Below are positions 26,168 through 32,634 of a stretch of 64,000 nucleotides of DNA, piece by piece. Each line of letters opens with the position of its first letter. Position 1 is the first letter of the stretch. Source of the DNA: Gemmatimonas sp. Lineage in GTDB: Bacteria; Gemmatimonadota; Gemmatimonadetes; Gemmatimonadales; Gemmatimonadaceae. Location: the NCBI RefSeq assembly GCF_021298855.1, contig NZ_JAJTHI010000040.1, positions 1 to 64,000 on the forward strand. Direction: 5' to 3'. The notes under the pieces were generated by a model. It made no database searches, was not told the DNA's origin, and saw only the letters and a program-made list of their open reading frames with translations. A program made the position numbers and the translations under genes.

Positions 26168-26899
26168 TCAGAACGCGATGATGTTGGCGCCGAGGTAATA
26201 GGTAATGAAGTCGGCGCGCCCGCGAACGGGCACCGGCACCGCGTTGTTCTCGAAGGCCTGCCGCACCCGATCGGAGGTCAGGTAGCGCACGTCGTCATGG
26301 CGGAGAAAGCGGGCCCCGAGGTCGAGGCGGACGGGGAAGTTGCCGCCAGTGAGGCGAAGGTAGCTGCCCACCGCTCCACCGTAGGCCCAGACGGCATCAC
26401 TGGAGTTCGTGGTGCGAGCGAAAGGCGAGTTGACGTTCTGCGACCCTTCGACATTGCTCTCGGTCCAGAAGACCGAGAAGCCGCCGAGCACCGTGGCGTA
26501 GGGCGTGAAGGCCCCGGTGGGCCCAAGCAGCTGCGGGCCAGCAACGACGGACATGATGTTGCTGGACGTGCGCAGGTCGAGCTGCACGAGCCCTCCGGTT
26601 CCGGCCAACGGAATGCGCCGCCGGCTGTTGGCGTACGAGACGAAGGAGAAGTCACCGCGCACATTGAGGAGCTTGTCGCGGTCGAGCGCGCGGAGGACGT
26701 AGCCGCCCAGCCCGAAGCCGTTGTTGGTGTTGGCAGCGAATTCGCCTCTGGGTTCGGTGACCTGAAAATGGAGGCCGAGCGCGCCGAGACCCGACGGGAC
26801 TCGCGCATCGTCGGTGCGGGGGCGCGGGGTATCCTGGGCGGCGGCCCGTCCACTGACGAGGAGGAAGGCGGCGGCCAGCATGGCGTGATGGAGGTGCAT
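26168..26899 (-). CDS. Outer-membrane beta-barrel-like protein
   Basis: The 243-residue product has a signal peptide (MLAAAFLLVSGRAAAQ) and alternating hydrophobic/polar strands with many Gly and aromatic residues (VRLDLGARFLRHDDVRYL), ending in ITYYLGANIIAF with a terminal Phe, the usual barrel assembly signal. Size and pattern fit an 8-strand OmpA-like or OmpW-like barrel. The specific role is unknown. Divergent from a small secreted protein gene. Confidence 0.7.
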   Translation of the reverse strand: MHLHHAMLAAAFLLVSGRAAAQDTPRPRTDDARVPSGLGALGLHFQVTEPRGEFAANTNNGFGLGGYVLRALDRDKLLNVRGDFSFVSYANSRRRIPLAGTGGLVQLDLRTSSNIMSVVAGPQLLGPTGAFTPYATVLGGFSVFWTESNVEGSQNVNSPFARTTNSSDAVWAYGGAVGSYLRLTGGNFPVRLDLGARFLRHDDVRYLTSDRVRQAFENNAVPVPVRGRADFITYYLGANIIAF

Positions 26900-27007: not shown

Positions 27008-27442
27008 ATGCCTTTCCGCCACGTGTCCACGCTCTGGCTCTGGTTGGCGCTCCTCTGCGGAGCACCGGCCGGCAGTGCCCATGCGATCGCGCCGCGTGCG
27101 CCGATCGCGGAGGCCGTGGTCGCGAGTTCAGCGGTCGCGCCTGCCGTCGCGCCGCGGGCGGTAGACGCGCCCGCGCTGCGCCCGGCGCTTCCCGGCGCCC
27201 CGCGGCTGTCGGGGGGTGAGCCGGCCGAACACCGCCAGTCGCGCTCGTGGCACCGCAGCACCAGCCGCCGCTCCCAGCGGGACGCCGGCGGCCTGCTCAC
27301 CGCGTCGGGGGGGACGGGGATCATTCCTGCCCCGGTGGCGTTGTATCGTGAGCGTGCGCCATGGCAGCGACGCGGTGCCTTTGCGGGACGCGTCACGGGT
27401 CGCTTCGCCGCCCCGCCGCGCGCGCCGCCCGCGCACAACTGA
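27008..27442 (+). CDS. Small secreted Ala/Pro-rich protein, hypothetical
   Basis: The 144-residue product has a Sec-type signal (RHVSTLWLWLALLCGAPAGSAHA), then an Ala/Pro/Val-rich stretch and an Arg/Ser-rich tail. No family is recognised and there are no Cys in the mature part. It lies 114 bases upstream of the exporter genes on the same strand. Low complexity means a chance open frame is possible, but the clean signal peptide argues for a gene. Confidence 0.5.
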   Translation: MPFRHVSTLWLWLALLCGAPAGSAHAIAPRAPIAEAVVASSAVAPAVAPRAVDAPALRPALPGAPRLSGGEPAEHRQSRSWHRSTSRRSQRDAGGLLTASGGTGIIPAPVALYRERAPWQRRGAFAGRVTGRFAAPPRAPPAHN

Positions 27443-27556: not shown

Positions 27557-29788
27557 ATGTCGGCACAGGCAACCCGCGTCAATCAACGCATCTCCGAGTC
27601 GCTCGGCCTCGACGTCGAGCAAGCCCGCTGGCGGGCGCTGACGCGCCAGATCTCTCCCCAGGACCCGCTCCCCGGTCGCATCCGCTCCATTGGCGGCGCC
27701 GTGGACATCGGGTTCCTCGACCGCACGCTGAGCCTCGAGGAGATACGGACCGCGATGGCGAAGGGGCAGCTGCCGCTGGTGTTGCTCAGCCGCGACGGCG
27801 GCGACGCCATTGTCCTGGATCGTGACGAGGAGGGGCATGCGCGCGCCTGGCTGGTGGGCCGGGATGGCGCCGAGCAGCGCATCGATGCCGATGCGCCCCA
27901 GCTGGCCGACGCGGTCGTGCGCCGGTTGGGGCACACGGGTGCCGTGCCGGCGCTGGCTCCCATGGCGCTCCGGTCACCGGTGGCCATTCAGGGAGATGGC
28001 GCCCCGCACAGCCCGCTCGAGGGGCATGGCGCACACGAGGCGGAACATCTTTCGCCGATCGACCGCACCTTCGCCCTGCTGGCACGGGAAAAGCGCGAAA
28101 TCACCACGGTGTTCTTCTACGCCACGCTGGCGGGCGGCCTGAGCCTGATCCTGCCGCTGGCGGTGGGTGGCATCGTGCAGCTGGTGCAGGGACGCCTGTT
28201 CCTGCAGCCGGTCGTCGTGCTCATTTCGTTCGTCATTCTGGGCACGATCGTGGCCGGGGTGCTGCAGATCGGCATCCTCAAGGTCGTCGAGCGCATCCAG
28301 CAGCGCATCTTCGCGCGCATGGCGCTGGAGTTCGCCTTCCGCGTGCCGCGCATGAAGTACGCCTCGTCGCTCGAGCAGAACCTGCCGGAGCAGATGAACC
28401 GGCTCTTCGAGGCGGTGGCCATCCAGAAGGGCATGCAGAAGCTGCTCATCGATGTGCCCACGGCGCTGCTCACCGTGCTGTTCGGCCTCATCCTGCTCAC
28501 GGTGTACAGTCCGTGGTTCTCGCTCTTCGCGGTGGTGGTGATCTTCATTCTGTACATGATCATCCGCCTGACCGGACCGGAGGGGCTGGCCACCTCCATC
28601 GTGGAGTCGAAGTACAAGTACAAGGCGGTGCACTGGCTGGAGGAGATCGCGCGCGCCTTCCACGCCTTCAAGTATGCCGGCGACTCCACGTTGCCGGTGG
28701 AGCGCATGGATGATGTCATCACGGGGTACATCAAGTACCGCAAGAAGCACTTTGCGGTGCTGGTGAAGCAGACGATCGCGCTGATCGGCTTCAAGACGTT
28801 CATCACGGCGGCCGTGCTCATCATCGGGGCCACGCTGGTGCAGACGAATCGCCTGCTGCTCGGGCAGTTCGTGGCCGCCGAAGTGGTGATCGTGACGGTG
28901 CTGGTAGGCGTGGAGAAGCTCATGACGAGCCTGTCCACGGTGTACGACGTGCTCACGTCGGTGGACAAGTCGGGGCACGTGGCCGATCTGCCGCTCGAGG
29001 CGCGCGGCGGCCTGGCGCCCATCCACACGCCCGGCACGGGGGTGGCCATCGAGACGCGCGACCTGCGCTACCGCTATCCGGGTGCCAAGTCGCCCTCGGT
29101 GGATGGCGTGTCGGTGCGCATCGCGCCGGGGGAGCGGGTGGCCATCATGGGCGTGGACGGCTCGGGGCGCAGCACGCTGGTGAAGCTGCTGGCGGGGCTC
29201 ATCGACGATTACGACGGCACCATCCGCTTCGACGGCATCACGCTGCGCGATCTCGACCGGCCGGCGTTGCGCGCACGCATTGGCCAGATGCTCTCGTGGG
29301 GTGACCTCTTCGATGGCACCATCGAGGAGAACATCAGCGTGGGGCGTGCGCACATCACGCCGCTCGACGTGCGCGAGGCGCTCGACGACCTGCAGCTGAC
29401 CGACGAGATCCAGCATCTGCCGCAGGGCATCCAGACGGAGCTCACCAACGGCGCCCGCAACCTGCCGGCCCACCTGGCCAACAAGCTGCTGGTGGCGCAG
29501 GGCATCGTGGGGCGTCCGCGCCTCGTCGTGCTCGACGACTTCTTCCAGAACCTCGACGCGTCGTCGCGGTCGCTCATCATCCGGCTGCTCACCGATCGGG
29601 AGCGGCACTGGACGGTCCTTACCGTATCCCACGATCCCCAGCTGCTGTCGGCCTTCGACCGGGTACTGGTGGTGCACGACGGCAAGGTACTGCGCGATGG
29701 CACGTTCCAGCAGCTTCGCAGCGATCCGCTCTGCCGCAGTCTCCTGCACGAGTACGTGAACGAATCCCCGGCCGCGAACGGCGCCTGA
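27557..29788 (+). CDS. ABC exporter subunit with degenerate ATPase motifs
   Basis: The 743-residue half-transporter resembles type I secretion ABC proteins. It has a cytosolic N-domain (1-165), a six-helix membrane domain (about 180-470), and a nucleotide-binding domain (about 495-735). Key motifs are altered: Walker A is GVDGSGRST with Arg538 for the invariant Lys, the Q-loop position reads LSWGDLF without Gln, the LSGGQ signature is replaced by LPAHL (636-640), and the Walker B partner is Asp661 not Glu. The His switch (SHDPQ) is kept. No C39 peptidase Cys is seen. It is followed by HlyD and TolC partners. Confidence 0.88.
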   Translation: MSAQATRVNQRISESLGLDVEQARWRALTRQISPQDPLPGRIRSIGGAVDIGFLDRTLSLEEIRTAMAKGQLPLVLLSRDGGDAIVLDRDEEGHARAWLVGRDGAEQRIDADAPQLADAVVRRLGHTGAVPALAPMALRSPVAIQGDGAPHSPLEGHGAHEAEHLSPIDRTFALLAREKREITTVFFYATLAGGLSLILPLAVGGIVQLVQGRLFLQPVVVLISFVILGTIVAGVLQIGILKVVERIQQRIFARMALEFAFRVPRMKYASSLEQNLPEQMNRLFEAVAIQKGMQKLLIDVPTALLTVLFGLILLTVYSPWFSLFAVVVIFILYMIIRLTGPEGLATSIVESKYKYKAVHWLEEIARAFHAFKYAGDSTLPVERMDDVITGYIKYRKKHFAVLVKQTIALIGFKTFITAAVLIIGATLVQTNRLLLGQFVAAEVVIVTVLVGVEKLMTSLSTVYDVLTSVDKSGHVADLPLEARGGLAPIHTPGTGVAIETRDLRYRYPGAKSPSVDGVSVRIAPGERVAIMGVDGSGRSTLVKLLAGLIDDYDGTIRFDGITLRDLDRPALRARIGQMLSWGDLFDGTIEENISVGRAHITPLDVREALDDLQLTDEIQHLPQGIQTELTNGARNLPAHLANKLLVAQGIVGRPRLVVLDDFFQNLDASSRSLIIRLLTDRERHWTVLTVSHDPQLLSAFDRVLVVHDGKVLRDGTFQQLRSDPLCRSLLHEYVNESPAANGA

Positions 29789-29791
29789 TCC

Positions 29792-31138
29792 ATGGCCTCC
29801 TCCGACATCAACATCGAGCGCGAACTCAAGGCGCTCCCCCTCGAGACCACGACCCTGCTTGGCGCGGCGGACAGCGGCCGTGTGGTGTCCCGCTGGCTGA
29901 TCGGCATTCTGCTGGTGCTCGTGGCCATCATGTTCCTGCCCTGGCAGCAGAACGTGCAGGGCAACGGCAACGTCACGGCGCTCAGTCCGGCCGACCGTCC
30001 CCAGCAGCTGCAATCGCGCATCGACGGCCGCATCGAAGCGTGGTTCGTCTCCGAAGGCCAATTCGTGAAGAAGGGCGACTCGATCGTCCGGATCTCCGAA
30101 ATCAAGGAAGAGTACCTCAACCCGAACGTGCTGCCGCTCACGCAACAGCAGCAGTCGGCCAAACAGAGCGCGATCGAAGAGAAGCTCAACAAGGCCGCCG
30201 CACTGTCGCAGCTGATCGAGCGGCTCGAGCAGCAGCGGGACTTCAAGCTGCAGCAGACGGCCAACAAGGTGTTGCAGTACCAGGCCGAGGTGCGGCAGGC
30301 CACCCTCGAGGATTCGGTGGCCCGCGACCAGCTGCGTCGGCGTGAGCGCCTGTTTCGCGACTCGCTGGGCCTGGTTTCGGTGAACGACCTGCAGACCTTC
30401 CAGATTCGCGTGCAGTCGGCGGCGGCGAAGCTGGTGGAGAAGCAGCAGATGCTGGCCATTACGCAGACGGACCTGCAGAGCATTCCCGCCGAGTACGGCG
30501 AGAAGATCGCGAAGTCGCGCTCCGACCGCGCGGCCACGCTCGCCGAGGTGAGCGAGGGGCGCTCCGATGTGGCGAAGCTCAAGGACAAGGTGGGGTCGCT
30601 CACCCTGCGCAACTCGTTTTACGTGATCGAGGCCCCGCAGGATGGGTACGTGGTGCGGGCCACGCGCGCCGGCCAGGGGGAAATCGTGAAGGCGGGTGAG
30701 CCGATCGTGAGCATCCAGCCGGCGCGCCCCCGCAAGGCCGTGGAGCTGTACGTGAAGCCGATGGACGTGGCGCTCCTCAAGCCGGGGCGCCATGTGCGCG
30801 TGTTCTTCGATGGGTGGCCCGCATTGCAGATCTCGGGATGGCCGCAGGTGGCGGTGGGCACCTTCGGCGCGCAGGTGGCGGTCATCGACCAGTTTCCGAG
30901 CGCCGATGGTCGCTTCCGCGTGCTGCTGGTGCCCGACACCACCCACGATGAAGACTGGCCTGCCCAGTTGCGGCTGGGCACCGGCGCCGAAGGATGGGCG
31001 ATGCTCGACAACGTGACCGTGGGGTGGGAACTGTGGCGTCAGCTGAACGGCTTCCCGCTGTCGATCAAGCCCGGCGACGCACTCTCCGGCGATGAAGTGG
31101 CGGGCGGCAAGGGCAAGGATGGCGGAGGCAAGAAGTGA
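29792..31138 (+). CDS. HlyD-family membrane fusion protein
   Basis: The 448-residue periplasmic adaptor has one N-terminal membrane helix (WLIGILLVLVAIMFLPW), a first biotinyl-lipoyl half (IDGRIEAWFVSEGQFVKKGDSI), a long coiled-coil hairpin (about 125-275, Gln/Lys/Glu-rich), the second lipoyl half (IEAPQDGYVVRATRAGQGEIVKAG) and a C-terminal beta-barrel region. It starts three bases after the ABC gene and should bridge it to the TolC-like protein. The final 20 residues are Gly/Lys-rich. Confidence 0.92.
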   Translation: MASSDINIERELKALPLETTTLLGAADSGRVVSRWLIGILLVLVAIMFLPWQQNVQGNGNVTALSPADRPQQLQSRIDGRIEAWFVSEGQFVKKGDSIVRISEIKEEYLNPNVLPLTQQQQSAKQSAIEEKLNKAAALSQLIERLEQQRDFKLQQTANKVLQYQAEVRQATLEDSVARDQLRRRERLFRDSLGLVSVNDLQTFQIRVQSAAAKLVEKQQMLAITQTDLQSIPAEYGEKIAKSRSDRAATLAEVSEGRSDVAKLKDKVGSLTLRNSFYVIEAPQDGYVVRATRAGQGEIVKAGEPIVSIQPARPRKAVELYVKPMDVALLKPGRHVRVFFDGWPALQISGWPQVAVGTFGAQVAVIDQFPSADGRFRVLLVPDTTHDEDWPAQLRLGTGAEGWAMLDNVTVGWELWRQLNGFPLSIKPGDALSGDEVAGGKGKDGGGKK

Positions 31139-32634
31139 CGGCGACGTGGCGACTGGCAGCCCTGCTGCTGCTCGGAACGGCGCTGCCCGGCCGCCCGGTT
31201 GGCGCCCAGGCCATGTCGGCCGCCGACAGCGCGCGGCTCCGCACCAGCGCGCTCATCGGCATCGTGGTGGATACCTCCGGCACGCCGTTCACCTTCCCGG
31301 CGTTCGTTGACGTGGTGCTGGCCAACCACCCGGTGGCGCAGCAGGCGCGCCTGGTCTCGGAGCAGGCCCGGGCCGAGCTGCGGCAGGCGTGGGGGGCGTT
31401 CGACCCCAAGCTCATGGCGTCGTGGGATCAGAAGCGCTATGCCGGCACGGAGTACTTCAAGTACTTCGATGCCGAACTCAAGCTCCCGCTGCCCATTGGC
31501 GCCGACGTGACGCTGGCGTTCGACCGTACCATGGGGCGCTACTTCAACCCCGACCGCCGCACGGTGGGGAACGGCACCTTCTCGGCCGGCATTTCGCTCC
31601 CCCTGGGGCAGCGCATCATTACCGACGAGCGGCGCACGGCGCTGCGGCAGGCGCGCGCCGCGCGGGATGCGGGCGACGCCGACCGCATCGGCATCCTCAA
31701 CAAGCTGCTGTTCTCGTCGGCCAAGGATTACGGCACCTGGTACGAAATGTGGCGGCGGCGCGCGATCGCGCAGGAGGGGGAGGCGCTGGCCGACTTCCGC
31801 CTGCGCGCGGTGCGCCAGCGGGTGGCCAACGGCGAAAGCGCGCCCATCGACACCGTCGAAGCGTTGTTGGAGCTGCAGCGCCGTCAGGTTACGCGCTTCG
31901 AGACCGAGGCCGCGTTCTACGTGGCCACGCTCAACCTCATGGCCTACCTCTGGGACGACGCCGGACGCCCTGCGGCGTTGCCGGAGAATGCCAAGCCGGT
32001 GCTCGACGGCATCGGGCGGGGTGGCATCGATTCGCTGCGCCTCGATGGCCTGTTGGCGCTGGCTACCCGGCGCAACCCGGACCTGCTCAAGGTGCAGGCC
32101 AAGGTGCAGCAGGCGGAGGCCGAGCGGCTGCTCGCCACGCAGGGGCTCATTCCGCTGGCCGAGGCCAAGCTGGCGGGGCTGGCCGAGCGCGGGAGCGACG
32201 CCGCCTTTTTCAATCGTGAGCGGCTGGACAACAACTACAAGGCCGCGCTCACGTTCAGCACGCCACTGCTGTTTCTCAAGGAATCGGGCAAGTTCGCCGC
32301 CACCGGTGCCAAGCTCGAGTTTCAGGAGTTCGAGCGCGACCGGCTGCGCCGCGACGTGGAGTTCGACGCCCGGGCCGCCATCTTCGAGCTGTCGAACCTG
32401 CAGCGGCTGCTGGACCGGCAGGCCGCCAACGTCCGCAACGCGCGCCTTCTGCGCGATGCGGAGCAGGTACGCTTCGAGAACGGTGAAAGCACCCTGCTGA
32501 TTCTCAACCTGCGGGAACGGCTGGTGCTGGACGAGGCAACCAAGCTGGCGGCGCTGGAGGCCAAGGTGGCCTCGGCGCGGGGGGCGCTGGCGCTGGCCAC
32601 GGGTGATCGAACGCTCATCACGGATCAGCGGTAG
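31135..32634 (+). CDS. TolC-family outer-membrane channel
   Basis: The 499-residue product begins at a GTG (31135) that overlaps the adaptor stop (GTGA), with a signal peptide ending GRPVGAQA. Two long helical repeats typical of TolC channels are seen (LVSEQARAELRQAWGAFDPK and its C-terminal counterpart; VEALLELQRRQVTRFETEA). It completes the three-part export system. The protein ends with a family-typical helix (AKVASARGALALATGD). Confidence 0.9.
   Translation: MTATWRLAALLLLGTALPGRPVGAQAMSAADSARLRTSALIGIVVDTSGTPFTFPAFVDVVLANHPVAQQARLVSEQARAELRQAWGAFDPKLMASWDQKRYAGTEYFKYFDAELKLPLPIGADVTLAFDRTMGRYFNPDRRTVGNGTFSAGISLPLGQRIITDERRTALRQARAARDAGDADRIGILNKLLFSSAKDYGTWYEMWRRRAIAQEGEALADFRLRAVRQRVANGESAPIDTVEALLELQRRQVTRFETEAAFYVATLNLMAYLWDDAGRPAALPENAKPVLDGIGRGGIDSLRLDGLLALATRRNPDLLKVQAKVQQAEAERLLATQGLIPLAEAKLAGLAERGSDAAFFNRERLDNNYKAALTFSTPLLFLKESGKFAATGAKLEFQEFERDRLRRDVEFDARAAIFELSNLQRLLDRQAANVRNARLLRDAEQVRFENGESTLLILNLRERLVLDEATKLAALEAKVASARGALALATGDRTLITDQR

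Follow-up and report, generated by a model that had tools for sequence, protein, structure and literature searches.

A HlyD/TolC-linked exporter family of Gemmatimonadota and Bacteroidota with a degenerate or lost nucleotide-binding domain: a candidate for ion gradient-driven export

A three-gene operon was investigated in the window, which is the whole analyzed stretch of 64,000 nucleotides from the Gemmatimonas sp. contig NZ_JAJTHI010000040.1. The operon encodes a subunit related to ATP-binding cassette (ABC) exporters, a HlyD-type adaptor and a TolC-type outer-membrane factor. It was concluded, at a probability of about 0.5, that this tripartite exporter is not powered by ATP hydrolysis at its own nucleotide-binding domain (NBD) and that its transmembrane domain (TMD) uses an ion gradient. 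Sequence comparisons made both the lack of ATP hydrolysis and the presence of a transport activity highly probable, and a proton gradient was put forward as the driving force tentatively, by analogy. It is possible that a type I secretion-like lineage in Bacteroidota and Gemmatimonadota exchanged ATP for a different source of energy, and that the intermediates survive. Judged by their sequences, the surviving stages are members with a near-intact NBD, with a degenerate NBD retaining the Walker A Lys, with a degenerate NBD lacking this Lys, and with the NBD fully lost.

We proposed that the subunit, which has a HlyB/ComA fold and would act most likely as a homodimer, forms a trans-envelope exporter together with its own HlyD and TolC partners. 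The NBD would be a conserved pseudo-ATPase of a structural or regulatory role, perhaps still touching nucleotide, and would give no energy. The TMD would most likely draw energy from a transmembrane ion gradient, the leading candidate for a proton carrier being Glu442 of transmembrane helix 6 (TM6), as in the NBD-less SbmA.

Operon and motifs of the exporter subunit

The following features were located in the window:

27557..29788, + strand: exporter subunit gene (ABC), 743 amino acids (aa); N-terminal domain at residues 1-137, six-helix TMD at 167-476, degenerate NBD at 498-736
29792..31138, + strand: HlyD-type periplasmic adaptor gene (hlyD), 448 aa; 3 bp behind the exporter gene
31135..32634, + strand: TolC-type outer-membrane factor gene (tolC), 499 aa; overlaps hlyD by 4 bp
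27557..27967, + strand: N-terminal alpha/beta domain, residues 1-137; missing from the short Bacteroidota members
28055..28984, + strand: TMD; the best-conserved part of the family
28592..28711, + strand: intracellular loop 2 (ICL2), coupling-helix-2 region, residues 346-385; constraint relaxed among NBD-less members
28880..28882, + strand: Glu442 in TM6; conserved across the core family
29048..29764, + strand: degenerate NBD, residues 498-736
29150..29176, + strand: Walker A, GVDGSGRST; Arg538 for Lys, codon CGC at 29168
29294..29296, + strand: Q-loop position; Ser580, not Gln
29462..29476, + strand: ABC signature position, residues 636-640; LPAHL, not LSGGQ
29534..29539, + strand: Walker B Asp660, kept, and Asp661 in place of the catalytic Glu
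29630..29632, + strand: His switch, His692, kept

The codons bore out the motif reading of the initial annotation, namely Arg538, no Q-loop Gln, LPAHL, Asp for Glu and a retained His. The A-loop Tyr507 and the Gly residues of the P-loop were also found to be intact by codon. His692 alone survives of the catalytic set, and the domain is not a canonical catalytic NBD. The partner genes had been described as intact and tightly coupled, and this held: the reading frames lie 3 bp apart or overlap by 4 bp, and the products were matched by Pfam HlyD_3 and Biotin_lipoyl_2 (adaptor) and by OEP at 101 bits (outer-membrane factor). The exporter protein itself was matched by ABC_tran (56.7 bits) and ABC_membrane (33.1). 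The ABC-hlyD-tolC order of a tripartite exporter operon was kept across the relatives.

The structure model of the subunit showed the fold of a type IV ABC exporter, with 566 residues aligned to 8dck_B at a Z score of 28.0 and an rmsd of 2.9. The N-terminal domain gave no Pfam match. It is possibly C39-like, as in HlyB, a reading taken solely from the whole-length Foldseek alignment to HlyB 8dck_A (730 columns).

Conservation of the degenerate domain in Gemmatimonadota

About 35 orthologues, 34-98% identical, were found in 298 genomes of the phylum, including 15 of the 16 genomes of the window genus. They were set apart by a wide gap, the E values being at most 1.5e-92 for the orthologues and at least 6.8e-38 for other ABC exporters. 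The collected homologues showed the same set of changes as the window protein: in congeners the Walker A Lys is replaced by Arg or Gln, the Q-loop residue is Ser, the signature is LPAHL-like, Walker B ends in Asp-Asp and the His is retained. The canonical signature was absent from all orthologues and the Q-loop Gln from nearly all. Among the 36 non-redundant Gemmatimonadota members, position 538 was Arg, Gln, Glu, Ser or another residue and Lys in one; within the phylum, this Lys survives in one lineage only (L023/L057). The His switch was kept in 34 of the 36, and the catalytic position was Asp in 28 and Glu in six.

Pairs within the genus gave dN/dS values of about 0.01-0.13 (TMD), 0.04-0.17 (NBD) and 0.06-0.41 (N-terminal domain). 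Hence, the NBD is under purifying selection, yet, unusually, it diverges faster than the TMD. The NBD identity minus the TMD identity was mostly -0.12 to -0.24, against -0.09 to +0.15 in the canonical exporters found in this bacterial family. Local decay or sequencing error was ruled out as the source of the degenerate motifs, because the changes are common to the orthologues and dN/dS in the NBD is well below 1. Close homologues with intact motifs, which would point to such decay, were not found; only basal Bacteroidota members, well outside the degenerate clade, keep the Lys, the Glu and mostly the His.

These data also bear on an ordinary exporter whose NBD hydrolyzes ATP through unorthodox residues. 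The NBD fold is conserved under purifying selection, and the Gemmatimonadota members keep the His, the Walker B Asp and the P-loop Gly residues, as such an enzyme would. Against it, the Lys, Gln, signature and Glu were lost as a set, the residue at the Lys position varies (Arg, Gln, Glu, Ser), and one clade lives without an NBD altogether, which makes this explanation very improbable. The expectation of the initial annotation that the subunit should not hydrolyze ATP normally is thus strengthened by the losses shared among homologues and by the deletion of the NBD in a subclade.

Two members from another Gemmatimonadota family (L034 and L035) formed a divergent second lineage with a TMD identity of ~33% and Thr in place of the Walker A Lys. 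They branch near the base of the tree and possibly lost the Lys independently. A typical Gemmatimonadaceae copy was also present in a record titled Candidatus Kuenenia stuttgartiensis (L054, CALQGY020000046.1), which is probably a mislabelled or contaminated bin.

Bacteroidota relatives and the order of losses

When 84,980 species genomes were scanned with the TMD profile, the best 80 loci belonged to Gemmatimonadota and Bacteroidota, a few doubtful or uninformative titles aside. Of the 395 Bacteroidota genomes that were sampled, about one in four had a TMD match. The core Bacteroidota members keep the Walker A Lys and have mostly lost the signature, the Q-loop Gln, the catalytic Glu, the Walker B Asp and the His. 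A basal Bacteroidota grade (L152-L165, L183-L185) is near-intact: the Lys and the catalytic Glu were present in 17/17 and the His in 14/17, and a LSTGQ-like signature was seen in four.

In a maximum-likelihood (ML) tree of TMDs (90 taxa, LG+G4), the degenerate Gemmatimonadota and core Bacteroidota members formed one clade (SH-aLRT 85.3 / UFBoot 94) with the near-intact members outside it; the deepest nodes were poorly supported. On this topology the degenerate state is ancestral to the Gemmatimonadota and Bacteroidota clade. Since the near-intact members fall outside, the catalytic loss is older than the split of the two gene groups. The Walker A Lys is a later loss on the Gemmatimonadota branch.

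The initial annotation had also offered the subunit as one half of a heterodimer, with a regulatory or structural role, and suggested looking for a second canonical half. More broadly, the degenerate subunit could pair with a canonical ABC half or sit among canonical dimers, as in a HlyB/D-like assembly, with the partner hydrolyzing ATP. A single degenerate site is a common feature of heterodimeric exporters (review PMC7756269), and TM287/288, TmrAB, BmrCD and TAP resemble the window protein in the Asp for the catalytic Glu, the altered signature and the fold. Further ABC exporters are also encoded in the window genome. In TM287/288-type pairs, however, one canonical site is retained over two genes, whereas in the single gene of the window every site is broken. 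With the Walker A Lys, the catalytic Glu and also LSGGQ missing from the degenerate subunit, pairing with an intact partner would still leave both composite sites non-canonical. The operon has no canonical half, and the genome searches found no canonical paralogue in the family. Nearly all genomes of the family had one TMD match each, and an in-family heterodimer is therefore disfavored. Additionally, the NBD-less members persist alone with hlyD and tolC. A heteromeric arrangement was thus considered quite unlikely.

A Bacteroidota subclade without an NBD

Family genes with a TMD only were found at 42 loci in 41 Bacteroidota genomes. Six were seen first, and 29 of 86 and 11 of 34 matching genomes in two families, overlapping the first six, were then counted. 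One of these loci (L103, JAJAZB010000488.1) belongs to a metagenome-assembled genome of Cytophagaceae. The reading frames stop at most 16 residues from the TMD end, and hlyD begins -11 to +118 bp from the gene end at the 42 loci, so no room is left for an NBD remnant. Truncation, frameshift and contig ends were rejected for all 42 loci, as hlyD follows and the contigs continue. A locus with the family TMD and NBD on two overlapping reading frames (L248, genome G780), whether by frameshift or as a split gene, was left out of the count. One genome (G766) holds three family members, one NBD-bearing (L231-L233 include one frame of 577 aa) and two NBD-less (frames of 340 and 334 aa), and offers a good natural comparison.

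The NBD-less members were monophyletic (SH-aLRT 99.9 / UFBoot 100) and branched from within the degenerate clade; in a larger FastTree phylogeny 38/38 fell together with a support of 1.0. A single deletion is therefore indicated, since retained in at least two families. The TMDs of the five closest pairs gave dN/dS values of 0.004-0.064, which corresponds to strong purifying selection. The AlphaFold2 model of one NBD-less protein (pLDDT 91) matched complete type IV exporter TMDs, with Z scores of 26.4 for TmrAB and 26.2 for HlyB/D 8dck_A. The suggestions in the initial annotation that the system may use energy differently and may be a new subclass gained support from this deletion and from the shared losses.

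The coupling regions were compared between NBD-less members and their sisters. The TMDs were about equally constrained, residues around 360-380 excepted. There, ICL2 is relaxed in the NBD-less members: Trp360 falls from 100% to 53%, and Arg366 and Phe371 behave likewise. In the structure model the ICL2 coupling helix comprises residues 368-373. Among 317 windows, the region ranked 9th-27th in three comparisons; in two control comparisons it did not stand out. ICL1 was not relaxed. This was taken as moderate evidence, from sequences that are not independent of one another, that no NBD docks at ICL2 of the NBD-less members.

The relaxation bears on an NBD acting in trans, by which a canonical ATPase would dock on the TMD in the shared-ATPase style and the own NBD would be vestigial and then lost. 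Consistent with it, the NBD-less members keep ICL1 conserved and the cytoplasmic helices long, and canonical ABC genes are plentiful in their genomes. Against it stand the relaxed ICL2 around coupling helix 2 and the obstruction by the own NBD in NBD-bearing members. A profile search of 11 NBD-less genomes likewise did not find the family NBD elsewhere: the best scores of 155-173 bits were at the level of canonical proteins, and the NBD-bearing control genomes gave 238-362 bits. Docking of a canonical ATPase was judged unlikely.

Glu442 and the source of energy

Glu442 occurred in 98% of core family members, in all NBD-less members and in 95% of near-intact members; canonical exporters mostly have Leu at this position. 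Transmembrane charges arising together with the NBD loss were looked for with a negative outcome, as Glu442 occurs already in the near-intact members and is therefore older than the loss of the ATPase. On its conservation Glu442 is a reasonable candidate for a proton carrier. A proton-driven exporter was favored because of this candidate and of the precedents of SbmA and MsbA, and a passive gated conduit and an NBD acting in trans were kept as the rivals still in contention.

Several points weigh against ion-gradient energization. Glu442 may instead be structural or take part in substrate binding. A foreign NBD may conceivably dock on the NBD-less members, because these members retain ICL1 and the two long intracellular helices, whereas SbmA lost its coupling helices. 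Nucleotide binding, and slow hydrolysis too, may persist, because the Bacteroidota members keep the Walker A Lys and the Gemmatimonadota members keep the A-loop Tyr, the P-loop Gly and the Walker B Asp.

The same residues would fit a passive nucleotide-gated conduit, in which the substrate runs down its gradient or is trapped outside and the NBD gates without hydrolysis, as in CFTR. The A-loop Tyr, the P-loop Gly and, in Bacteroidota, the Walker A Lys are kept, when the signature and the catalytic Glu are lost. Such gating agrees poorly with the lack of the Walker A Lys in all Gemmatimonadota but the L023/L057 lineage and with the dispensability of the entire NBD, and we regard it as improbable.

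Comparison with known systems

Type I secretion by HlyB-HlyD-TolC (HlyB, LssB, PrtD; PDB 8dck, 5l22) shares the operon logic, the partners and the type IV TMD with the family, and HlyB within the HlyB/D complex was the top Foldseek match of the window protein. Unlike in that system, the family NBD is degenerate or absent and there is no recognizable substrate gene. The type I secretion profiles were not reached, with 194 of 693.1 bits for LssB (TIGR03375) and 146 of 725.6 bits for HlyB (TIGR01846). By sequence profile, the nearest solved TMD relatives were ComA (3.7e-9) and PCAT1; the search of the PDB with the family TMD profile returned ComA, PCAT1, ABCB10, HlyB and PrtD and no SbmA chain. 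The NHLM exporter profile TIGR03796 was the second-best NCBIfam match of the window protein, at 180 bits against a cut-off of 853, and the best match for the core Bacteroidota members tested. Unlike the family, ComA, PCAT1 and the NHLM exporters have NBDs that are active and, in many cases, a C39 peptidase.

SbmA/BacA (SLiPT) proteins resemble the family in an ABC-exporter TMD without an NBD, NBD-bearing ancestors and conserved membrane glutamate(s). SbmA, a proton-driven peptide importer, descends from an ABC exporter which shed its NBD; it has an additional TM0 and a glutamate ladder, and its coupling helices were lost (PMC13316013). Proton-coupled transport has also been described for MsbA while ATP is still used (PMC4979069). 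Unlike SbmA, the present family is HlyD/TolC-linked, of the exporter type, and retains long intracellular helices. The window member has an NBD and thus falls outside the SLiPT definition; only the Bacteroidota subclade shares the absence of an NBD. An established name for the family was found neither in NCBIfam and Pfam nor in open-licence PMC papers, and a prior description elsewhere is possible.

Significance

ABC exporters are regarded as obligate ATP machines; among proteins with an ABC-exporter-like TMD, SbmA is the known exception. With a living series from near-intact to NBD-less members and a conserved operon, the loss of the ATPase by a primary transporter becomes directly testable. 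The family also allows one to ask whether a TolC-linked exporter with an ABC-type TMD can use the proton gradient. If the proposal is true, the annotation as ATP-driven type I secretion would be wrong for many Bacteroidota and Gemmatimonadota operons, and an ABC exporter would have turned into a secondary transporter for a second time, separately from SbmA. To our knowledge, this would be the first such conversion in a HlyD/TolC-linked trans-envelope exporter.

Neighboring genes

Two further features lie upstream of the operon:

27008-27442, + strand: small Ala/Pro-rich secreted open reading frame (ORF); 85% in the nearest relative only, weak elsewhere
26168-26899, - strand: secreted barrel-like outer-membrane protein, divergent from the operon; conserved upstream neighbor

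No substrate-like conserved neighbor was found around the family loci. The small secreted protein gene pointed out in the initial annotation is present just upstream; it did not prove to be a conserved component. Because its good conservation is confined to the nearest relative, the ORF is probably not a part of the exporter system, and it was rejected as an exporter substrate on the same weak conservation. The barrel-like protein was found beside the operon in the related loci tested, at 69-89% identity, and is a possible functional partner of the exporter.

A TetR-family-like regulator gene was located near 22 of 53 degenerate, 20 of 42 NBD-less and none of 19 near-intact loci. Taken together, 42 of the 95 degenerate or NBD-less Bacteroidota loci had such a neighbor (e.g. 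L078, L103 and L146), hinting that the inducer might be a small molecule or envelope stress.

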